Assembly: GCF_000383975.1 (NCBI RefSeq)
Contig: NZ_KB913017.1
Location: 1,593,105 to 1,657,104, forward strand
Reading direction: 5' to 3'
Length of the DNA stretch: 64,000 nucleotides
Origin: Natronorubrum tibetense GA33
Lineage (GTDB): Archaea; Halobacteriota; Halobacteria; Halobacteriales; Natrialbaceae
A program made the translations under genes and the position numbers. Shown here piece after piece: positions 44,145 to 55,351 of this stretch. Within the stretch, counting starts at the first letter, position 1. The number at the start of each line of letters is the position of its first letter. The notes beneath the pieces were generated by a model. That model was not told the origin of the DNA. It made no database searches and was given only the letters and a program-made list of their open reading frames with translations.

Positions 44145-45308
44145 CTACCACCAGCGGTTTTCGAGCAGTCTGTCGATTGCCTCCTCGAGCGTCGCCTGAT
44201 TCCGAGAAAAGGTAAACCGAATCCAGTCGGCCTCCGCGTCGGGGTCGGTGTAGAAACTGCTGCCGGGGACGGCGGCCACGCCGGCCTCGCGGATCAACCG
44301 GTAACAGAACTCGATGTCGGACTCGTCGGTCGGGTACCGCGTCATGATGTAGTACGCACCGTCCGGCTTGATCGGCTCCAACCCGGCCTCCAGCAAGCCG
44401 TCGTAGAGGAGGTTTCGCCGCCGTTCGTAGGAGTCCGATAGCTCCCGATAGTACGAGTCCGGGAGCGACAGCGCCTCGACGCCGGCCCGCTGGAACGGCG
44501 TGGGCGCACAGATGCTCGTGTAGTCGTGGACCTTTCGCAGCTCTTTCGAGAGGTATTCGGGCGCGAGACAGAAGCCGACCCGCCAGCCCGTGACGCTGAA
44601 CGTTTTCGACATCCCCGTACAGACGACGGTGCGCTCGGCGAGGTCGCCGACCTCGACGGGGCTGCAGTAGTCGTCGTCGTAGACGATGTGTTCGTAAATC
44701 TCGTCGGTCAGTACGATGAGGTCGTGTTCGAGGACGATCTCCTCGATCGCCTCGAGTTCCGCGCGGCTGAACACCTTTCCCGTCGGATTCATCGGCGTGT
44801 TGAGCACGAGGATCCGCGCGCGTTCGGCGGCGTCGGCGAGCCGATCCACGTCGATCTCGAGGTCGTCGGTGATGTCGATCGGAATCGCGGTTGCCCCGGC
44901 GAACTGACTCGCGGGGATGTAGCTCTCGTAGACGGGTTCGAAGTAGATCACCTCGTCGCCGGGGCCGGCGAGCGAGAGCATCGTCGACATGATCGCCTCG
45001 CTGGTCCCGCTGGTGATCGTCACCTCCGTCTCGGGGTCGTAGGTGATGCCTTTCCAGTCGGCGTAGCGCTCGGAGACGGCCTCCCTGAGTTCCGGCAACC
45101 CCCAGGTGATCGTGTACTGGCTGTCGGTGTCGATGGCCTCCCGAGCGGCCCGCTTGATCTCCGGCGGCGTTTCGTCCTCGTCGGGGATGCCCTGCGAGAG
45201 GTTGATCGCGCCCTCGCTGATCGCCGCTCGAGTCATCTCGCGGATGACCGATTCGGCGACGTCGCTCGTCCGTTCGGTTCCGACCGTCGGCCTCGGTGTC
45301 TTCGTCAT
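44145..45308 (-). CDS. class I/II PLP-dependent aminotransferase
   Basis: 387 residues, fold type I. The PLP lysine is in GMSKTFSVTGWRVGF; other landmarks are NLSQGIPDEDETPPEIKRAA, TITSGTSEAIMST, LNTPMNPTGKVFSRAEL and VLTDEIYEHIVYDD. The pattern resembles archaeal aspartate/aromatic or kynurenine-type aminotransferases. It begins 19 bases after agmatinase in the same direction and so is the last gene of a three-gene operon (small protein, speB, aminotransferase). In that setting it may transaminate putrescine-derived or other amino compounds (inference). Confidence 0.93.
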   Translation of the reverse strand: MTKTPRPTVGTERTSDVAESVIREMTRAAISEGAINLSQGIPDEDETPPEIKRAAREAIDTDSQYTITWGLPELREAVSERYADWKGITYDPETEVTITSGTSEAIMSTMLSLAGPGDEVIYFEPVYESYIPASQFAGATAIPIDITDDLEIDVDRLADAAERARILVLNTPMNPTGKVFSRAELEAIEEIVLEHDLIVLTDEIYEHIVYDDDYCSPVEVGDLAERTVVCTGMSKTFSVTGWRVGFCLAPEYLSKELRKVHDYTSICAPTPFQRAGVEALSLPDSYYRELSDSYERRRNLLYDGLLEAGLEPIKPDGAYYIMTRYPTDESDIEFCYRLIREAGVAAVPGSSFYTDPDAEADWIRFTFSRNQATLEEAIDRLLENRWW

Positions 45309-45327: not shown

Positions 45328-46332
45328 TCATTCTGCGAACTGTCGCTCGAGCAGCGTCACGAGGAGATACGCCGCGATCCGTTCGGTCCCTTCGGTCGCG
45401 TCGTAGCGCGGGGCGACCTCCATCAGGTCCATCGCGCCGACCGCGTCGCTCGCGCCGAGCACTTCCATCGTTTTCAGTGCCTGTCCGGCGGTGAGACCCC
45501 CCGGGACCGGGGTGCCGGTTCCCGGCGCGACGCTCGGATCGATGGCGTCGATGTCGAACGAGACGTAGACGGCATCGGTATCTTCGGCCGCCGCTTCGAC
45601 CGCGTCCTCGACGACCGAGACGATGCCTTCCGTCTCGATATCCCGCATCGTGTAGAGGTTCAGTCCAGTTTCGTCGGCGAACTCGAAGAATTCGGGCGAT
45701 TCGTAGCCGCGGATGCCGACCTGGCTCACGTCGCTGTACTCCGTGTGAGGCGAGTCGGCGATCAGCGCCGTACTCGAGCCGTGGAAGTCCGTTCCGAAGA
45801 CCGGACTCTCGGAGACGGTGTCGGTGTGGGCGTCGATCTGGACGAATCCCACGCGGTCGTGGCCGGCCCCCTCGGCGAAGCCGCGAACGGCGGGAAACGT
45901 ACAGTAGTGGTCACCGCCGAGGACGACCGGAAAGGTCTGATCGGCGACGGTCGCGACGTGGGCCGTGATGCTCTCTGCCGTCGTCTCGCTGTCCATCGGG
46001 AAGACCGGCACGTCGCCACAGTCCGCGACGGTGAGGTCGTCGAAGTTAACTTGCTCGCCGGTCTGCATGTTCGTCAGTCCGCCCTTGTAATCGGAGAGGT
46101 ACGCCCACCAGCCGCTGGCCGAACGGATCGCCTCGGGACCGTATCTGGCTCCGGGTCGGTTCGAGACCGCGCCGTCGTAGGGGATCCCGAGCGCGGCCGC
46201 GTCGACGTCGTCGACGTTCTCGACCTCGCGAGGTTCACCCTTGAGGAACGTCTTGTGGCCGGCGTAGGCGAGTTCGACCGACGAGCCCTGTACGGACTCC
46301 CGGAAGGCTGCGGCGCGTGATTCATCAGACAT
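45328..46332 (-). CDS. speB: agmatinase/ureohydrolase
   Basis: 334 residues, arginase superfamily. Binuclear manganese ligands are in VLGGDHYCTFP, QIDAHTDT and SFDIDAIDPSVAPGTG; the C-terminal EVAPRYD motif is also conserved. It hydrolyses agmatine to putrescine and urea (or a related guanidino compound). ATG at 46330-46332; the upstream small gene overlaps this start by eight bases (ATG..TGA), so the two are translationally coupled. In haloarchaea speB is often near eIF5A, since agmatine-derived polyamines feed hypusination; here it sits with nitrogen-type genes instead. Confidence 0.94.
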   Translation of the reverse strand: MSDESRAAAFRESVQGSSVELAYAGHKTFLKGEPREVENVDDVDAAALGIPYDGAVSNRPGARYGPEAIRSASGWWAYLSDYKGGLTNMQTGEQVNFDDLTVADCGDVPVFPMDSETTAESITAHVATVADQTFPVVLGGDHYCTFPAVRGFAEGAGHDRVGFVQIDAHTDTVSESPVFGTDFHGSSTALIADSPHTEYSDVSQVGIRGYESPEFFEFADETGLNLYTMRDIETEGIVSVVEDAVEAAAEDTDAVYVSFDIDAIDPSVAPGTGTPVPGGLTAGQALKTMEVLGASDAVGAMDLMEVAPRYDATEGTERIAAYLLVTLLERQFAE

Positions 46333-46570
46333 CGGCTCCACCTGTGGTCTCGACTTCGAGTGCGTCGCCGATGGCCCCGTTGCCGTGATCGACGTTCGCG
46401 ACGGCGGTGCCGGAGAAGGGATCGAGAGACCCGTTGCCGTCGAAGTCCTCCAGTGTGAAATTGTCAGCCCGCTCGATCGGTGCGTCCAGACGCTTCCGGA
46501 TCGGCATCAGGTAGTCGTTGCAGCGCTCCGCTACGGTCCGGTCGTTCGTTGCTGATCTTCCGAATGTCAT
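46325..46570 (-). CDS. 81-residue protein overlapping agmatinase start
   Basis: Frame from ATG 46568-46570 to TGA 46325-46327, overlapping the speB start codon by eight bases, the classic layout for translational coupling. Sequence features: a basic N-terminal part (PIRKRLDAPIERADNF), then an acidic glycine-rich part (TLEDFDGNGSLDPFSGTAV, NVDHGNGAIGDAL). DGNGSLD resembles one EF-hand-like calcium loop. No family recognised. Position suggests it is first in the speB operon. Confidence 0.55.
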   Translation of the reverse strand: MTFGRSATNDRTVAERCNDYLMPIRKRLDAPIERADNFTLEDFDGNGSLDPFSGTAVANVDHGNGAIGDALEVETTGGADV

Positions 46571-46663
46571 TCTTTTACACACTGGCAACAGTATGCCACC
46601 CTATTCTTTTTTCAGCGGGGTTAAAAGGTTACCTCGCTTCGCTCGAGTCGGTCGACCCACGAA

Positions 46664-46703
46664 ACCAAACCTTGGTGATGATCCCCCACTACTGAGATAG
46701 TAG
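46664..46703. promoter_or_regulatory. inverted repeats between divergent NrpR-like and speB operons
   Basis: Two perfect short palindromes: ACCAA-ACC-TTGGT (46664-46676) and CTACT-GAGAT-AGTAG (46689-46703), the second ending at the base before the NrpR-like ATG. They could be autoregulatory operators. The spacing does not match the GGAA-N6-TTCC site found upstream of the second NrpR operon. An AT-rich block (TTCTTTTTTCAGCGGGGTTAAAA, 46604-46627) nearby probably contains both promoters. Confidence 0.45.
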
Positions 46704-47747
46704 ATGGCGCCGGAACTCGAGCGACGCACGTACGATCTCCTTCGCCTCGTGGATCGGCACGGACCGATCGGCAGCATCCAACTCTTCGAACTGATGCAGC
46801 TCCACGGATACGATATCAAGGACCGAACGATCAGACTTCGGCTCTCCGAACTCGACGACCTCGGACTGACCGAAAAAGTGCCGGGCCAGGGCCGCCAGCT
46901 AACGTCGAAGGGACGAACCGAACTCGAGAAGGGAGACGTCAACACGCGTCTCGAACAGCTCCGGGCCCGGATCGCCACGCTCACCAGCCGCGTGAGCTAC
47001 GATCCGATCGACGACAGCGGTGCGCTCGTCGCTTCAACGGCCTACCTCCCGGCATCCAACGTCGACGCGGCGCTCGACCTAATCGAACGTCTCGAGGACC
47101 TCCCGCTGGGGCCGATTCCGGTTTCGTTGGCGGAGAGCGGCGAGGACGACCCCGGCGACGTTCGGCTGGCGACCGCCTCGAGCATCACGCTGGACGGCGT
47201 CTTGCTCGCACACGGCGTCGACGCCAACATCTCGAACGCGGATCTCCTCGAGTACGAACCCAGCGAGACGACGTCGACGAACGACGTGGTCCCCCAACAG
47301 GGCGGTCACATTCGACGGCATATCGACGTAATCAACGGCGAGGGATCCTCGATCGACGTCGTCTCACTGCTCATCGAAGCCGGGCGCACCGACGTGACGA
47401 CGGTCCTCGAGACGGGCGAGGCGGGGCTGCTCGTCGGCGACAGCCGCGAGTTCCCGATCAACCGCTTCGAGGAGGCCAGGGATCTCGCGGTCGCGACGCG
47501 GCGGTCCCTCGGGGGCGTCCTCGAGTTCCGTCGGCCGCGCGAACAGAGCCACCTCCCGAGCGGGACCTCGACGTGGGCTTTCGGCTCGATCACGTACATC
47601 GGTCCCGGCGAACTCCTGTTGACCGTCCTCAGCGAGTACGGATTGACCGAAGAGTGGGAGACGCTGTCCGGAACGATCGAACGAAGCAAACTCGAATCGG
47701 TACAGTCGATCCGATCGGCGCGGCCGGAGCCGCTGCTCGACGACTGA
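46704..47747 (+). CDS. NrpR-family regulator, first copy (winged helix plus NRD/DUF128)
   Basis: 347 residues. N-terminal winged helix (about 8-75): LRLVDRHGPIGSIQLFELM, KDRTIRLRLSELDDLGLTEK and PGQGRQLTSKGRTELE. The rest is one NRD (DUF128) effector domain with SRVSYDPIDDSGALVAS, SITLDGVLLAHGVD, GEGSSIDVVSLLIEAGRTDVT and LPSGTSTWAFGSITYIGPGELLL. In methanogens NrpR represses nif and glnA and senses 2-oxoglutarate. The methanococcal protein has two NRDs; this one has a single one. Divergent from the speB operon and convergent with the amidohydrolase gene. Paralogue at 52874-53887. Confidence 0.93.
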   Translation: MAPELERRTYDLLRLVDRHGPIGSIQLFELMQLHGYDIKDRTIRLRLSELDDLGLTEKVPGQGRQLTSKGRTELEKGDVNTRLEQLRARIATLTSRVSYDPIDDSGALVASTAYLPASNVDAALDLIERLEDLPLGPIPVSLAESGEDDPGDVRLATASSITLDGVLLAHGVDANISNADLLEYEPSETTSTNDVVPQQGGHIRRHIDVINGEGSSIDVVSLLIEAGRTDVTTVLETGEAGLLVGDSREFPINRFEEARDLAVATRRSLGGVLEFRRPREQSHLPSGTSTWAFGSITYIGPGELLLTVLSEYGLTEEWETLSGTIERSKLESVQSIRSARPEPLLDD

Positions 47748-47802: not shown

Positions 47803-48633
47803 CTACTCGAGGTCGTAGACGTCCGGCCGACGATCCGCGAGGGCGTCGTCGCGGGGGGTCAGGGCCTTCGTCCGCGCACGCTCGAGGTCGCAGTCGGCCG
47901 TGAGGACGTGTTCGCCCGTTGTCGGTGCCGGTCCGGCGAGCGGGAGCCCGTCCGGATCGACGATCACGCTCTGTCCCTCGAAGGCGGTGCCGCGCTCGGT
48001 TCCGGCGCGGTCAGCACAGGCGAGGAACACTCGGTTTTCGTTCGCGCGTGCGACCGCCTGGTGGACGCCCATCGTCCACCCCGCGGGCCGTTCGCCCTCG
48101 CTCGGGCCGGGAACCCAGTTCGTCGGGACGGCGACGAGGTCGACGCCCGCGCGGGCCTGGGTCACCGTCGTTTCGCTGAACCAGAGATCGTTGCAGATCT
48201 GGACGCCGAGTCGACCGAACGGCGTCTCGAACGTCGGCAGCGCGTCGCCCGGTTCGAACCACCGTTTCTCCTCGTTCCAGAGGTGGACCTTTCGGTAGCC
48301 GCCCTCGACGCCGTCGGGAGAGACGACGAGGGAGCTGTTGTAGTAGGAGTTGCCGTCGACTTCGGCGAAGCCGCCGACGACCCACGCGTCGGTTTCGGCG
48401 GCGACTGCGGCCCACGCTTCGGCGGTCGGCCCGTCGCGCGGCTCCGCCAGCGGCTCGAGTTCGGTTCGACTTTCGAACACGTACCCCGTCGTGGCCAGTT
48501 CGGGGAGGACGACGAGGTCGGCGTCGGCGTGCTCGCGGACGAGTTCGACCGTCCTCGAGCGGTTTCGGTCGACGGCGCCGAACGTCGGAACCGTCTGGGC
48601 GGCGACGACCGTGGCCTCGTCGGCTCCGTTCAC
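47803..48633 (-). CDS. nitrilase-superfamily amidohydrolase
   Basis: 276 residues. Catalytic Glu in LPELATTGYVF, Lys in GYRKVHLWNEEKRWF and Cys in LGVQICNDLWFSE (the residue after Cys is Asn, not the frequent Tyr or Trp). The fold is complete. N-carbamoylputrescine amidase, omega-amidase and aliphatic amidase belong to this superfamily; an amide-hydrolysing role fits its place as last gene of the Pot-like transport operon. It starts with GTG (48631-48633) in a GTGA overlap with the permease stop, so coupling is certain in layout. Exact substrate unknown. Confidence 0.9.
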   Translation of the reverse strand: MNGADEATVVAAQTVPTFGAVDRNRSRTVELVREHADADLVVLPELATTGYVFESRTELEPLAEPRDGPTAEAWAAVAAETDAWVVGGFAEVDGNSYYNSSLVVSPDGVEGGYRKVHLWNEEKRWFEPGDALPTFETPFGRLGVQICNDLWFSETTVTQARAGVDLVAVPTNWVPGPSEGERPAGWTMGVHQAVARANENRVFLACADRAGTERGTAFEGQSVIVDPDGLPLAGPAPTTGEHVLTADCDLERARTKALTPRDDALADRRPDVYDLE

Positions 48634-50525
48634 TCCCAGATCCCTCCGGAGAGATGGTCGATCGCGACCATGACGACGACGGTGAGCGCGATGAAGACCA
48701 CGCTCGCGGCCGCGATGGTCGGCGAGTAGCCGTACCGAAGCGAGTTGAAGATCCGGATCGGGATCGTATCGACGAGGAACAGCGACAGCAGCCAGGCGAT
48801 GATGTACTCGTTCAGCGAGAGAATGAACGCGAACAGCGCGCCCGAGATCACGTTCGCCCGCAAGAGCGGGTACGTGATCGTCCGAATTGTCTTAATCGGG
48901 GACGCACCGAGGTTCATCGCGGCCTCCTCGTAGGTTCGATCGAGTTCGTCGAGCCCCTGGGAGATGAGAATGAACGGGAACGGGGCGTAGAAGATTCCGT
49001 GGGCAACGATGATGCCCGCTCGAGTCCCCGCGAAGCCGAGCTCGAGGAAGAAGACGAGAAACGCCACGCCGACGATGACCGGCGGAACCAGAATCGGGAG
49101 CACGCCGAAGGTTCCCAGGATCGCGCTCCACCGATAGCCGTACCGGTCGAGGGCGAACGCCAGCGTCCCGCCGATCGTCGTGCTCAGGAGTGCGGCGGCT
49201 CCGGCGATGCCGAGGCTGTTGATCAGCGCGATGAGCCACGACGGGTCCGTGAAGAACTCGACGTACCACTGCATCGAGAACCCGCCCGGCGGGAACGTGA
49301 GGAACTGTTCGGGCGTGACCGAGACGGCGATGATGATCCCCAGCGGGGCCGCGATGAACGTCATCGCGGCGATCACGTAGAGCCGACTCGCCGTCCAGAT
49401 CACCCGTTCGCGGGTCTGGGCGTCGACCGTCGTGACGACACTGTCGAGCCCGCGTCCGGCACTCCCGAGCAGCCGAGTGAGCCCGACGGCCGAGGCCACC
49501 GAGGCGAGCGTAGACCGGACTCGCGTCGTCCCTGCGGACGACTCGTATGCGGTCGAATCGGGCGCTCCACCGTCGGGTTCGGCCACCTCGTCGCCGCCGA
49601 GACTGGCGGCCGTCACGTTGGTGAACCGGACCATCGCCCAGAGGAACGCGAGGACGACCACGATCAGCCCGATGCTCATCGCGGCGGCGAACGGGTAGTT
49701 CTGCTCGCCCATGATCTGGGCCTCGATCAACACCGGCAGCGTTCGCTCGGCGGAACTGCCGAGCAGCCGCGGCATGACGTACGCCCCGAGCGCGAGGATG
49801 AACACCAGCGCCATCCCGCTGGTGATGCCGTTTTTTGACAGCGGTAGCGTCACCCGTCGAAACGTCGTCACCGGACCCGCCCCGAGGTTCTTCGAGGCCT
49901 CGAGGAGTTCGCCGTCGATGTTTCGGATACTGCTGTAGAGCGTGAGGATCATGAACGGCAAGAAGACGTACACCATGCCGACGACGAGCCCCCAGTAGCC
50001 CGGATAGAACGACTGGGGTTCGGCGAGCAGGCCGGTTCTGACGCCGATCGAGCTCAGAACCCCGCCGGAAGCCAGGATGACCTGCCAGGCGTAGGCGCGG
50101 ATGACGTAGGTGACCCACAGCGAGGAGATGATCGTGATCAGCAGCAGGCTCCGGAGCCACGGCCGGTTCATCCGCGCGAGGTAGTACGCGATCGGGTAGC
50201 CGAGTAGCAACGAGGCGAACGCCGTGACGAGCGAGATTTCGATCGTCAGCCAGAGCTGTCTGAGATAGAGGTTCGTCTCGACCGGCGGCCAGCCGAGCGT
50301 GGCGCTCACGTCGAGGAATCGCGCGTAGTTTTCGAGAGTAACGCCCGGCCGGTAGGAGCCGCCGGGGATGTTCACGTAGAAGCTAAAGACGACGAGCATC
50401 GCGAGCGGCACCAGAAAGACGGCGACGAGCCAGAACAGCGGGTAGCCCAGCGCGTACCACTTGGTGTTCGACTTCAGTCCCGCACGTGCCGGCTCGTCGG
50501 CGTCAGTCGATGATTCCGCCCCCAT
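48630..50525 (-). CDS. fused ABC importer permease (PotB-PotC in one chain)
   Basis: 631 residues containing two complete permease units. Unit one (about 25-320) ends with the EAA loop EASKNLGAGPVTTFRRVTLPL; unit two (about 385-625) has EAAMNLGASPIKTIRTITYPL. Each has six helices and they are joined by a polar linker (about 320-370). Both resemble PotB/PotC-type spermidine/putrescine permeases rather than iron or molybdate ones, although Fbp-type importers can also be fused. ATG at 50523-50525 directly abuts the ATPase stop. The substrate presumably an amine (inference from neighbours). Confidence 0.92.
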   Translation of the reverse strand: MGAESSTDADEPARAGLKSNTKWYALGYPLFWLVAVFLVPLAMLVVFSFYVNIPGGSYRPGVTLENYARFLDVSATLGWPPVETNLYLRQLWLTIEISLVTAFASLLLGYPIAYYLARMNRPWLRSLLLITIISSLWVTYVIRAYAWQVILASGGVLSSIGVRTGLLAEPQSFYPGYWGLVVGMVYVFLPFMILTLYSSIRNIDGELLEASKNLGAGPVTTFRRVTLPLSKNGITSGMALVFILALGAYVMPRLLGSSAERTLPVLIEAQIMGEQNYPFAAAMSIGLIVVVLAFLWAMVRFTNVTAASLGGDEVAEPDGGAPDSTAYESSAGTTRVRSTLASVASAVGLTRLLGSAGRGLDSVVTTVDAQTRERVIWTASRLYVIAAMTFIAAPLGIIIAVSVTPEQFLTFPPGGFSMQWYVEFFTDPSWLIALINSLGIAGAAALLSTTIGGTLAFALDRYGYRWSAILGTFGVLPILVPPVIVGVAFLVFFLELGFAGTRAGIIVAHGIFYAPFPFILISQGLDELDRTYEEAAMNLGASPIKTIRTITYPLLRANVISGALFAFILSLNEYIIAWLLSLFLVDTIPIRIFNSLRYGYSPTIAAASVVFIALTVVVMVAIDHLSGGIWE

Positions 50526-51602
50526 CTACGCCTCCACGATTCGACAGTCGTCGGGGCCGATACGGACCGAGACGCGGTCGCCGGGCGACCGTTCGTCCGT
50601 CCCGCTTCGTCTGGCGACGACGAGTTCCCGGCCGTCGTCCGTCTCGAGTTGGTACTCCACGCTGCTTCCGAGGTGTCGTTTGAACTGGACCGTGGCGTCG
50701 AACGTGTTCTCGGCGGTTGCGCCGTCGGCACCCGCCGAGTCGATCGCGAGCCGTTCCGGTCGGGCCACGACCGAAACCGTCTCGCCGACCTCGACGCTGT
50801 TGCCGAGGGCGCGGATCGTGGCGTCCGAACAGTCGACGGTCGCGTAGCCGTCCTCGACGCTCGTCACGGAGCCGTCGAAGAGGTTCGCCGTTCCGAGGAA
50901 GTCGGCGACGAACCGCGTCTTCGGATCGTTGTAGACCTCCTCCGGCGGCCCGACCTGTTCGAAACGGCCGTCGTTCATCACCGCCAGTCGGTCGGACATC
51001 GTCAACGCCTCCTCCTGATTGTGCGTCACGAAGACCGTAGTGATGCCGACCTCCTGTTGAATCCGGCGCAACTCGACTTGCATCTGTTCTCGGAGCTTCT
51101 TGTCGAGGCTCGCGAGCGGTTCGTCGAGCAACAGCGCGTCCGGCCGCGGTGCGAGCGCGCGGGCGAGCGCGATCCGCTGTTGTTGGCCGCCCGAGAGCTG
51201 ATCCGGCGTTCGGTCGCCGACGCCGGGGAGTTCGACCAGCTCGAGCATCTCCGCGACTCTCGCGTCGATTTCCTCGTCCGTGTAGTCGCCGCTGACGTCC
51301 ATCCCGTAGGCGACGTTCTCGTGGATGGTCAGGTGCGGAAACAGCGCGAAGTCCTGAAACACCATCCCCGTGTTGCGCTCGTACGGCGGCGCGTCGGTGA
51401 CATCGGTTCCGTCGATCGAAATCGTCCCGTCAGTCGGCCGCTCGAAGCCGGCGATGGTCCGCAGCGTCGTCGTCTTCCCGCAACCGGAGGGGCCGACCAG
51501 CGTGACGAACTCGCCGCTCTCGATGTCGATATCTACCCCCTTGACCGCGAGCACACCACCCGGGTACCGCTTCGTCACGCCCGACAGTGAGATTCCGCTC
51601 AT
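50526..51602 (-). CDS. ABC importer ATPase, PotA-like
   Basis: 358 residues. Walker A VGPSGCGKTTTL, Q-loop (FQDFALFPHLTI), signature LSGGQQQRIALARALAPRP, Walker B ALLLDEPLASLDKKL and the switch His in FVTHNQEEALT. A C-terminal TOBE domain (about 280-350) marks it as MalK/PotA type. It energises the fused permease that follows without a gap. ATG at 51600-51602, only five bases after the binding-protein stop. Confidence 0.94.
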   Translation of the reverse strand: MSGISLSGVTKRYPGGVLAVKGVDIDIESGEFVTLVGPSGCGKTTTLRTIAGFERPTDGTISIDGTDVTDAPPYERNTGMVFQDFALFPHLTIHENVAYGMDVSGDYTDEEIDARVAEMLELVELPGVGDRTPDQLSGGQQQRIALARALAPRPDALLLDEPLASLDKKLREQMQVELRRIQQEVGITTVFVTHNQEEALTMSDRLAVMNDGRFEQVGPPEEVYNDPKTRFVADFLGTANLFDGSVTSVEDGYATVDCSDATIRALGNSVEVGETVSVVARPERLAIDSAGADGATAENTFDATVQFKRHLGSSVEYQLETDDGRELVVARRSGTDERSPGDRVSVRIGPDDCRIVEA

Positions 51603-51607
51603 CGGAA

Positions 51608-52711
51608 TTAGCCGATGATGAACTCTTCCCACTGTTCGTTGACCCACTCCTCCTCCTCGAGGTAGAGATCGTAGTAGGGGCTGATCGCCTCTTCGGGACC
51701 GGGTCCGGCGACCTCCTCGTAGGTCTCGTCGTCGAGTTCGGAGTGTTCCCGGTCGATAACGGGCGCGGTAAAGAGGCCCTCCGCGAGCCGGTCCTGTACC
51801 TCCGGGCGGCTCGCGTAGTCAATGAACTGCTGGGCCTCCTCGACCATCTCCGAGGGCTCGAGGACGACCCACGAGCCGGAGTCGATCACGGAGCCCTCCT
51901 CGACGAAGTTCGACTGGACGGGTGCGCCGTCTTCCTGCATGACTTTGGTGATGTCGCTGTAGAGCATGCCCGCTGGCACCTCCGCATCCTGGAGGCGCTG
52001 CTGGAACTCGGCCTCGTTCTCGTACCAGAAGTTCGCCTGGTCGGTGATGCCCTCGAGTTCTTCGAAGACCTCTTCGACGCCGTCTCGATCCTCGAGGATC
52101 TCCTGGCCGCCGAACTGAACCTCCGCGGTGATGTCGAGCAGGAAGGAGTTGGAGGCCAGTCCGAGCAGCCCCAACTGATCCTCGTACTCGTCGTCCCAGA
52201 GCGCTTCCCAGCTGTCTATCGGCTCCTCGAACACGTCGGTATTCTGCACGAGGTTGATATACCACGAGAGCGCGCCGATGCTGGCGATACCCCCTTCGCG
52301 CTCCTCGACGAGGTCGTCGCTGATGTACTGGAGGTTCTCGAACGCGTCTTCGTCGTCCCAGATGTGCCAGAGGTCGGAGTTCAGTCCGCGGAGGACGCCG
52401 ACCGTCGACATGATCGCGATGTCGACTGGCGCTTCGCCCGCGCCCACGGCGCTGTCGTACTGCGAGAGCGCCTCCTCGGCCGTCGGCTGCTCCTGAGATT
52501 CGGCTTCGAAGTCGACTTCCTCGTTGAACGGCTCGAACAGGACATCGTCCATGACTTCCTGGAACACGCCGCCGTACACCGCGACGGTCAGCGTGTCGTC
52601 ATCGTCGAGAAACCCCGTGCACCCCGCGAGCCCACCGATCGCAGCGGCGCTTCCGGTTGCCGCCGTCGTTCGGAGGAACGTCCGTCGTCCGTAGCTGTCT
52701 GATGCCGGCAT
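51608..52711 (-). CDS. ABC substrate-binding lipoprotein, PotD/spermidine-putrescine-like
   Basis: 367 residues. Signal MPASDSYGRRTFLRTTAATG includes a twin-arginine motif and the lipobox GLAGC; the mature protein starts DDDDTLTVAVYGGVFQEV, a typical family opening (extracellular solute-binding family 1, PotD group). Aromatic residues near the cleft (WHIWDDEDAFENLQY, YINLVQNTDVF) could contact an amine. The protein is exported and anchored by lipid; Tat export is normal in haloarchaea. ATG at 52709-52711. A promoter with palindromes lies upstream (52751-52787), after the NrpR gene of the same strand. Confidence 0.9.
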   Translation of the reverse strand: MPASDSYGRRTFLRTTAATGSAAAIGGLAGCTGFLDDDDTLTVAVYGGVFQEVMDDVLFEPFNEEVDFEAESQEQPTAEEALSQYDSAVGAGEAPVDIAIMSTVGVLRGLNSDLWHIWDDEDAFENLQYISDDLVEEREGGIASIGALSWYINLVQNTDVFEEPIDSWEALWDDEYEDQLGLLGLASNSFLLDITAEVQFGGQEILEDRDGVEEVFEELEGITDQANFWYENEAEFQQRLQDAEVPAGMLYSDITKVMQEDGAPVQSNFVEEGSVIDSGSWVVLEPSEMVEEAQQFIDYASRPEVQDRLAEGLFTAPVIDREHSELDDETYEEVAGPGPEEAISPYYDLYLEEEEWVNEQWEEFIIG

Positions 52712-52750
52712 TATGTTGCCACCTTGCTCAGTGAGTTGCTGATAGCTACA

Positions 52751-52873: not shown

Positions 52874-53887
52874 TTACCGCGAGCTCACGGGCGTCAGTTC
52901 GGACCGCCGCCGAACTCCGGCGAGGGTCTCCCACTCGAGCGCGAGGTCGGCTTCGACGACGGCCGAAATAACGAGCTCTGCGGTTCCGATACAGGTCAGC
53001 GAGGCGAACGACCAGCCCGGCTGGCCCCACGGGAACGGTCCCGATTCGCGCGGTCGCCGGAGGTCGACGACGCCGCCGAGTCCGTCGCGGGTTTCGACGG
53101 CGAGATCGCGCGCCGTCTCGTACCTCGAGAGCGGTATCTCCCGGTTGTCCGCGACCACCAGTCCGGTCTCTCCCTCGAGTACACGCTCGACCGTCGTCCG
53201 CCGGGCCTCGATCAACAGCGAGACCATGTCGAGGGTCGCCCGTTCGCCCCCGATAACGTCGGTGAACCGCCGGATCGACCCGCCGCGAACGACGCCGTCG
53301 GTATCCTCGTCCTCGGCCGACTCGACGTCGGGCCGATACTCGACGATCCCGGTCGTCTCGAGGTCCGACTCGATGCCGTTGGCCAGCAGAACGCCGTCGA
53401 TCGTCACGCTCGAGGTCGCGGCGAGTTCGAGCACCGTCCCGTCGTCTCCGTCGACGGGATCGATCGAGACCGGCGCCGGGCCGAGCGGGGAGCGATCGAT
53501 CGATCGGAGGAGTTCTTCGACCGTTGATCGCTCGGCTTCGGGGACGGTTACCCGGCCGACGACGACGTCGCCGCCGTCGGCCGCCGGATCGTAGGTAACC
53601 CGCCCGATCAGCTCCGCCAGCCGCTCGCGAACCTGTTCGACCCGGCCGCGAACGCCGCCGCGCTCGAGTTCGGCACGCCCCGCATCCGTCAGCTGACGCC
53701 CCTTGCCGCCAACCTTTTCGGTCAGGCCGTCAGCGTCGAGATCGGCGAGGGTAAACCGAACCGATCGCTCGGTGATCGAGTAGCCTCGCTCGCGGAGCAG
53801 ATCCGTAAGCCGGACGCTGCCGACCGGCTCGTGGGTTGCGAGCAGCCTGAGCGTATCGTAGGTTCGCTGATCCGTCTCGGATGTCAT
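52874..53887 (-). CDS. NrpR-family regulator, second copy (winged helix plus NRD/DUF128)
   Basis: 337 residues and the same domain order as the copy at 46704-47747. Winged helix: LRLLATHEPVGSVRLTDLL, ERSVRFTLADLDADGLTEKV, GGKGRQLTDAGRAELE. NRD: GRVTYDPAADGGDVVVG, SVTIDGVLLANGIE, GERATLDMVSLLIEARRTTVE and PWGQPGWSFASLTCIGTAELVI. The two are clear paralogues, conserved most in the wing and in the SxTxDGVLLA segment. ATG at 53885-53887, six bases after the class III aminotransferase stop, so it is in that operon and presumably autoregulated. Confidence 0.93.
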   Translation of the reverse strand: MTSETDQRTYDTLRLLATHEPVGSVRLTDLLRERGYSITERSVRFTLADLDADGLTEKVGGKGRQLTDAGRAELERGGVRGRVEQVRERLAELIGRVTYDPAADGGDVVVGRVTVPEAERSTVEELLRSIDRSPLGPAPVSIDPVDGDDGTVLELAATSSVTIDGVLLANGIESDLETTGIVEYRPDVESAEDEDTDGVVRGGSIRRFTDVIGGERATLDMVSLLIEARRTTVERVLEGETGLVVADNREIPLSRYETARDLAVETRDGLGGVVDLRRPRESGPFPWGQPGWSFASLTCIGTAELVISAVVEADLALEWETLAGVRRRSELTPVSSR

Positions 53888-53893
53888 AGTTGA

Positions 53894-55294
53894 TTACTGT
53901 CGGACGGCGGCTAAATCGCTGGCGAGATCGGCGAACGCCGTCACGTGGGTGTCGATGTCCGCGGCCGTGTGCTGGACGCTCACCGTCCACTGCTGGGACG
54001 CGTCGTGGGGGTGCGGGAGGACGTTTCTGTTGACCATCCCCAGCCAGTAGGCTTCATGGAACTCCTCGTCGATAGCCCCCCAGTCCCGGAACGTTCGGAT
54101 CCGCTTGTCGGTGAAGTAGACCATCCCTTGCGAGCCCGCGGTCACGACGTGACCCTCGAGCCCGGCGTCGTCGATCACGTCACGGTAGCCATCCGCGAGT
54201 CGCTCGGCGAGGGTGGTCACGTGGTCGTAGGCCTCGGTCGTGAGGATTTCCCCGAGCGTGACGCCGACCGCACGCAGTGCCAGTGGGTTCCCGTTGTACG
54301 TTCCGTAATGGGCCGCCCCGCTGGCCGTCTCGTCCTCGAGGTCGTCGGCGATCAGGGACATGAGTTCGCGACGGCCGCCGAACGCGCCCACCGGATAGCC
54401 GCCGCCGATCGCCTTGGCGAGCGCGACGAGATCCGGCTGGACGCCGTAGTACTCCGCACCCCCGCCCGGGGCGAGTTTGACGCCGGTTTTGACCTCGTCG
54501 AAGATCAACACGACGTCGTACTCGTCCGCGAGCTCGCGGAGCCGAAACAGGAAATCACCTTCCGGTTCTACCAGCCCGAGGTTGAGACAGGCCGGTTCGA
54601 CGAGAATTCCGGCGATCTCGGAGCCGTGCTCGCGCAGGAGCCGTTCGACGCTCTCGGCATCGTTGTACTGCGCGAGCAGCATATTCTCCGGGACGCCGTC
54701 GGGAACACCCTGCGACTCTTTGACCGGTCGCGGGTCGTCCGCCGGTCCCGCCCGGTCGACCGGCGGCATCTTGCTCACTAACCCCGGATCATGCGCGCCG
54801 TGGTAGGCTCCTTCCATCCGGACGATTTTCTCGCGGCCCGTGTACGCCCGTGCGAGACGGGTCGCGTGCATCACCGACTCCGTCCCGCTGTTCGTAAACC
54901 GGACCCGTTCGATCGCTTCCCAGCGGTCGATCAGTGGTCGGGCTGCAAACTCGAGGAGCTCACTGGGGCGGGTGTACAGCGTTCCTTGGTCGATCTGTAC
55001 TTTCGCCGCCTCCGATAGCCGCGGATGGGCGTGTCCGACGAGTTGGGTTCCGTTGTTGAGCGCGAAATCGAGGTACGATTCGCCGTCGATGTCGTAGAGT
55101 GTCGCGCCTTCGGCTCGGTCCGCGTGGATCGGGTAGGGCTCGTACGCCCGGTACGTGCTACAGACGCCGGCCGGCACGAACGACCGAAGACTGTCGGCTA
55201 GTCGTTCCGAGTTCGGCGTACGATCCCGGTAGCGTTCGCGTTCGGCCGCGAGCAGGGCGGCCACCGATTGCGGGCGTGGATTGGTCGAAGTCAT
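53894..55294 (-). CDS. class III PLP-dependent aminotransferase (GSAM-like)
   Basis: 466 residues. Landmarks of the ornithine/GSA/omega-aminotransferase group: YLDFALNNGTQLVGHAHP, RFTNSGTESVMHATRLARAYTGREKIV, EGAYHGAHD, LIFDEVKTGVKLAPGG and the PLP lysine in ALAKAIGGGYPVGAFGG. The start is the ATG at 55292-55294. Not a dedicated hemL; its place at the head of an NrpR and Pot-transport operon suggests it transaminates an imported amine or amino acid. A GGAA-N6-TTCC operator-like site lies 10 bases upstream of the start. Confidence 0.92.
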   Translation of the reverse strand: MTSTNPRPQSVAALLAAERERYRDRTPNSERLADSLRSFVPAGVCSTYRAYEPYPIHADRAEGATLYDIDGESYLDFALNNGTQLVGHAHPRLSEAAKVQIDQGTLYTRPSELLEFAARPLIDRWEAIERVRFTNSGTESVMHATRLARAYTGREKIVRMEGAYHGAHDPGLVSKMPPVDRAGPADDPRPVKESQGVPDGVPENMLLAQYNDAESVERLLREHGSEIAGILVEPACLNLGLVEPEGDFLFRLRELADEYDVVLIFDEVKTGVKLAPGGGAEYYGVQPDLVALAKAIGGGYPVGAFGGRRELMSLIADDLEDETASGAAHYGTYNGNPLALRAVGVTLGEILTTEAYDHVTTLAERLADGYRDVIDDAGLEGHVVTAGSQGMVYFTDKRIRTFRDWGAIDEEFHEAYWLGMVNRNVLPHPHDASQQWTVSVQHTAADIDTHVTAFADLASDLAAVRQ

Positions 55295-55303
55295 CTCGTA
55301 ATA

Positions 55304-55351
55304 CGGAAGTTTGTTTCCGGTTATCTCGGCTTCGACAGCGGGTCGTATATA
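55304..55351 (-). promoter_or_regulatory. promoter with NrpR-type operator GGAA-N6-TTCC
   Basis: CGGAA-GTTTGT-TTCCG at 55304-55319 is a palindrome with the exact GGAA-N6-TTCC arrangement established for NrpR operators in Methanococcus. Upstream on the minus strand is CTATATAC, a TATA box with core at 55346-55351. Transcription should begin about 26 bases downstream, near 55322, so the operator would cover positions about +3 to +18, where a repressor would block initiation. This is the only such site I found near these genes. Confidence 0.65.

Follow-up and report, generated by a model that had tools for sequence, protein, structure and literature searches.

The 64-kb stretch of DNA analysed here, which we call the window, carries a gene cluster with two genes for NrpR-type regulators (Table 1). 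A minus-strand operon consists, in order, of AT3, NrpR1, a PotD-like gene, a PotA-like gene, a fused PotB-PotC gene and a carbon-nitrogen hydrolase. Adjoining it are NrpR2, a plus-strand gene, and a divergent operon encoding a ureohydrolase together with a class-I aminotransferase.

Table 1. Genes and putative regulatory sites of the cluster, with positions in the window.
Feature	Position	Strand	Basis
TATA box (TATATA) of AT3-NrpR1 operon	55346-55351	-	sequence
O1, extended form ACCGGAA-N6-TTCCG	55304-55321	-	sequence
O1 palindrome CGGAA-N6-TTCCG, CGGAAGTTTGTTTCCG	55304-55319	-	exact match
AT3, class-III aminotransferase, first gene of operon	53894-55294	-	PF00202 E 6e-54
O1-like site GGAA-N6-TTCC within AT3, GGAAGGTGATTTCC	54550-54563	-	13/18 orthologues
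NrpR1, HTH_12 + one NRD, second gene of operon	52874-53887	-	Pfam PF01995, PF08461
O2 at PotD-like promoter, GGCA-N6-TGCC, GGCAACATAATGCC	52707-52720	-	21/21 clusters
PotD-like solute-binding protein; corrected start MPASDSYGRRTFLRT	51608-52711	-	PF13416; start conserved across clusters
PotA-like ABC ATPase	50526-51647	-	PF00005/PF08402; NCBIfam potA-like
PotB + PotC permeases fused, one 631-residue protein	48630-50525	-	PF00528; NCBIfam N half PotB-like, C half PotC-like
Carbon-nitrogen hydrolase (nitrilase / N-carbamoylputrescine amidase-like)	47803-48633	-	PF00795, NCBIfam
NrpR2, HTH_12 + NRD	46704-47747	+	domain search
O2 between NrpR2 and divergent ureohydrolase operon, GGCAACAGTATGCC (plus-strand reading)	46584-46597	-	18/19 clusters
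81-codon ORF, leader ORF of ureohydrolase operon	46325-46570	-	PF00202 E 0.0016
Ureohydrolase (agmatinase/guanidino hydrolase superfamily)	45328-46341	-	PDB matches
Class-I aminotransferase	44145-45308	-	PF00155

The best NCBIfam match of AT3 is GntE/HemL-like and falls under the cut-offs. With its start corrected to ATG 52711 the PotD-like protein yields a twin-arginine signal, and the true start of the PotA-like gene is probably near 51602. The fusion of PotB with PotC is also present in related clusters. The 81-codon ORF is 39-56% identical to full-length class-III aminotransferase genes in relatives and is, judging from this similarity, the N-terminal remnant of a second such aminotransferase; its counterpart is full length in three related clusters (L054, L055 and L058) and in the loci with a single NrpR. 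The promoter and the operator O2 seem to have been retained despite the truncation. The ureohydrolase, whose start is probably ATG 46332, finds its best PDB match in 7esr ('Probable agmatinase 2'), followed by agmatinases and guanidinobutyrase. Synechocystis Sll1077, formerly annotated as an agmatinase, is reported to be a guanidine-degrading enzyme (PMC8390497). On its gene content, we read the cluster as a system that takes up and degrades a polyamine or a guanidino compound, and a gene of the histone-deacetylase/acetylpolyamine-amidohydrolase type, found divergent beside AT3 in L053, L054 and L055, fits this reading.

Both HTH_12 and NRD (PF01995) score above the Pfam cut-offs in NrpR1. A search of the genome for PF01995 finds NrpR1 and NrpR2, which are 47% identical, and no other gene; each of the two has an HTH. 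The AlphaFold model of NrpR1 (pLDDT 84) has a recognition helix at residues 40-52 and a wing turn at 60-62, and its NRD part matches the solved NrpR structure 3NEK (E 2.9e-13, TM 0.79 by target length, 18% identity). Since PF01995 occurs in 35 of the 293 genomes sampled from the order, NrpR is patchy in haloarchaea, not absent. In a quick tree, as distinct from a careful maximum-likelihood search, the NrpR1 proteins group on a single branch (SH-aLRT 90), separate from NrpR2 and from the single-copy forms; the NrpR2 proteins form a branch (SH-aLRT 99) among the single-copy haloarchaeal NrpRs, and the NrpRI-type proteins of the phylum's methanogens are distant.

A first-pass annotation of this DNA had placed the palindrome CGGAA-N6-TTCCG between a TATA box and a start codon, ahead of an operon with its own NrpR gene. 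Both observations are borne out: the palindrome, which we call O1, has a single exact copy in the window and sits between the TATATA element (read from 55351 to 55346) and the AT3 ATG at 55294, and NrpR1 is the regulator gene in question. Transcription of AT3-NrpR1 is predicted to start near 55323, about 25 nt past the TATA box, with O1 spanning roughly +4 to +20, and the position of O1 between TATA box and ATG is compatible with repression. The core of O1 is also, as had been claimed, identical to the consensus operator of Methanococcus maripaludis NrpR, GGAAN6TTCC (PMC2723118). The epithet 'methanogen-type' is too general, because methanogens differ at the third base: for Methanosarcina mazei an NrpRI operator of the form GGTA-N6-TACC is reported (PMC3177094).

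As a string, O1 might be no more than a chance palindrome in a G+C-rich genome. The window has three copies of the bare 14-mer GGAA-N6-TTCC where 0.82 would be expected, and 4 of 100 shuffles reach that count of three. The genome-wide search proposed in the first-pass annotation does return the 16-mer CGGAA-N6-TTCCG, but at a frequency near chance (13 copies in 4.93 Mb, where base composition predicts about 5.5), and the copies elsewhere mostly look coding, falling within long ORFs; the sequence alone is therefore weak evidence. Moreover, the strict string ACCGGAA-N6-TTCCG is found in 76 of 125 family genomes, most of which lack NrpR1, and its spacers are mostly G+C-rich; GTGGCA-N6-TGCCA is found in 64 of the 125. 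Mere presence is thus uninformative and only position counts, and we dropped both strings as regulon finders. It is position together with cross-species conservation that makes O1 strong evidence.

The comparison set consists of 18 clusters with AT3 and NrpR1, that is, 15 from the genome's own family (the window's included) and three from two other haloarchaeal families. GGAA-N6-TTCC stands directly ahead of the start codon in all 18, which share ancestry and so do not amount to 18 independent events; O1 begins 15-27 nt before that codon, and an A/T-rich element lies at equal distance from it in every case. In the alignment CGGAA and TTCCG are 100% identical, the outer ACC and G are nearly invariant, and divergence is seen in the spacer and in most flanking columns. 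The extended consensus is ACCGGAA-N6-TTCCGG, and the window's own O1 is the copy with an altered outer base (TTCCGT). The test set in advance, conservation of the palindrome upstream of orthologous operons, has thus held, and the retention of one promoter position in 18 of 18 diverged clusters leads us to reject a chance origin, whose probability we consider virtually nil.

Two kinds of locus serve as controls. The 13 AT3 paralogues outside NrpR1 clusters (41-57% identical) have no O1, the lone match in their loci being an asymmetric string at a locus edge. Nor is there an O1 at the PotD promoter of three clusters without AT3 and NrpR1 (L076-L078), which retain O2; because all three have lost AT3 as well, the loss of O1 is not assignable to NrpR1 alone. 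A scan of genome contigs for relatives gave only one distant archaeal relative.

Additional O1-type palindromes are seen in some clusters: in L054 (3319), L055 (12734), L064 (12604) and L214 (3456) they lie 106-171 bp upstream of the proximal O1, and in L058 (13106) the distance is about 500 bp. In L054 the divergent deacetylase-family gene begins close to this additional palindrome. The O1-like site within AT3 lies about 0.75 kb from O1, and the glutamate encoded there uses GAA in 14 of 16 cases, against about one third overall; this site could be an auxiliary operator or a coincidence of protein sequence.

Palindromes of 4-6-4 architecture can be read by transcription factors other than NrpR, and NrpR1 is the proposed binder of O1. 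An unrelated factor that recognises GGAA-N6-TTCC nevertheless seems very unlikely, since O1 coincides with an NrpR1 gene in the same operon in 18 of 18 clusters, matches the published NrpR consensus, and is missing from AT3 paralogues outside NrpR1 clusters. The palindrome might also work at the RNA or translation level, given that it falls within the predicted 5' leader at the short distance from the start codon given above. Symmetric, invariant half-sites whose 6-nt spacer is free to vary are, however, what one would expect of a dimer operator; the O1 core coincides with the consensus site of an established DNA-binding repressor, and the O2 site at the ureohydrolase promoter shows equal symmetry. 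We consider such an RNA-level role extremely unlikely.

The first-pass picture of a GGAA-N6-TTCC operator is supported, but it is incomplete, having overlooked that there are two NrpR paralogues and a second operator, GGCA-N6-TGCC, which we call O2. This motif is present at the PotD-like promoter in every cluster compared, including those without NrpR1, and at the ureohydrolase promoter in all but one, the exception being a GGAA/TGCC hybrid in L058. The PotD site overlaps the true start codon, and it is the weaker evidence when taken alone because its right half overlaps the ATG-CC start and its GGTGG could belong to the ribosome-binding site. The ureohydrolase site lies between a T-rich, TATA-like minus-strand element and the first ATG, and has neither the start-codon overlap nor the ribosome-binding-site ambiguity. 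The strict form GTGGCA-N6-TGCC occurs three times in the 4.93-Mb genome, and two of these are the O2 sites of this cluster. The third, the sole copy outside the cluster, is at L245 1501-1516 (C1:2054531-2054546 of the same genome). O2 travels with the second paralogue, NrpR2. Upstream of NrpR2 itself, at 46660-46677 (plus strand), a conserved CCAAA-n-CTTGGTG-like element replaces the canonical TATA box in most NrpR2 clusters.

The two operators divide by promoter: the third base of the half-site is A/T in 18 of 18 AT3 (NrpR1) promoters, versus C/G in 39 of the 40 others (21/21 PotD, 18/19 ureohydrolase). It might be argued that one NrpR, or an NrpR1/NrpR2 heterodimer, binds both sites, and that A versus C at the third base tunes affinity and not the choice of paralogue. 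The identical 4-6-4 architecture of O1 and O2, the mixed half-sites of single-copy NrpR loci (GGAA/TGCC, GGCA/TTCC, GGTA/TGCC) and the hybrid O2 of L058 speak for this. Yet the A versus C split between promoter classes is near-complete, and clusters without NrpR1 are also without O1 while keeping O2, so that we judge a shared repressor unlikely.

Considering the observed sequences, their conservation, the co-occurrence of sites with regulator genes, the domain family and the fold, we think it likely that two diverged NrpR repressors with separate operators, NrpR1 on O1 and NrpR2 on O2, act over one uptake and catabolism cluster, and that each probably controls its own part of this polyamine/guanidino-type nutrient cluster. 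NrpR1 would bind ACCGGAA-N6-TTCCGG, presumably as a dimer, around the AT3-NrpR1 transcription start, just downstream of the TATA box, blocking initiation and so repressing its own operon; we infer such autoregulation as the simplest reading of O1. NrpR2 would repress two promoters, that of PotD and the divergent one of the ureohydrolase operon, by binding the sister site O2 in each. Both paralogues would keep the common framework GGNA-N6-TNCC, and what separates them would mainly be the third base in the half-sites. Methanogen NrpR is released by 2-oxoglutarate (PMC11957540). Repression here would probably be relieved by 2-oxoglutarate under nitrogen limitation or by a substrate of the cluster, a catabolic inducer being equally plausible.

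The one-base difference may have a counterpart in the proteins. At the HTH columns that are invariant in the methanogen set, NrpR1 agrees, whereas NrpR2 and the single-copy forms have D or G in place of E40 and mostly P in place of G60. In the model, the recognition helix begins with E40 and G60 lies in the wing turn, and we propose the two as candidate specificity residues. We gave up a simple code in which E40 means GGAA: Methanosarcina-type NrpRI also has E at this position, and yet a GGTA operator is reported. Nor are E40 and G60 the whole code, as the methanogen NrpRI set shares the E while an operator GGTA-N6-TACC is reported for M. mazei NrpRI. With evenly balanced confidence, we suggest that a duplication of haloarchaeal NrpR gave two local repressors without cross-talk, their operators one base per half apart (GGAA versus GGCA), and that the NrpR family as a whole has its specificity position at the third base (A, C or T) of GGNA-N6-TNCC, a base partly read by E40 versus D/G and by wing G60 versus P.

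The surroundings of the genome's two glnA-like (glutamine synthetase-like) genes contain neither O1 nor O2 in symmetric form. At these two genes a global nitrogen regulon is therefore not supported; the regulator looks local and catabolic, and the NrpR regulon appears to be local here, with a wider one possibly present in other haloarchaea. According to a haloarchaeal transcriptome paper, little is understood of how these archaea control nitrogen metabolism at the level of transcription, and a master NrpR is not conserved among them (PMC6801745). Our literature search, with most subscription journals outside its coverage, found no report of a haloarchaeal NrpR operator. O1 and NrpR1 offer a concrete, testable regulator-operator pair for this metabolism, and show an NrpR-type protein located at a cluster for catabolism and not over a global regulon. 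Together with NrpR2 and O2, they form a natural pair for working out a one-base specificity change in an archaeal winged-helix repressor.

By domains, fold and operator, the system belongs to the NrpR family. It shares with M. maripaludis NrpR, whose targets are nif, glnA and glnK-amtB, the HTH and NRD family, an identical operator core and the placement of operators in promoters of nitrogen-related genes. In contrast to that system, NrpR1 is a one-NRD protein encoded within its own target operon, O1 is extended to ACCGGAA/TTCCGG, and the targets are an aminotransferase and a transport/catabolism cluster. The likeness to NrpRI/NrpRII of M. mazei consists of an HTH-NRD protein of about the length of the phylum's NrpRI and the common framework GGNA-N6-TNCC; the third base is T in the reported M. 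mazei NrpRI operator and A or C in the haloarchaeal ones. Instead of an NRD-only protein as in the Methanosarcina pair, of which none is found in this genome, there are two HTH-NRD paralogues. The single-copy haloarchaeal NrpR loci beside a ureohydrolase (L066-L075, L215, L217-L230) share family and neighbourhood, and their adjacent promoters have GGNA-N6-TNCC sites that mostly carry C or are mixed, but they have one NrpR and no AT3-NrpR1 operon with a GGAA/TTCC operator. These loci have several such sites, often asymmetric, some of them near genes 2-4 kb away. The present system differs from the cited NrpR members, then, in its duplicate pair of HTH-NRD proteins, its extended O1, its GGCA operator, its place in a transport/catabolism cluster and its glnA genes without an operator.
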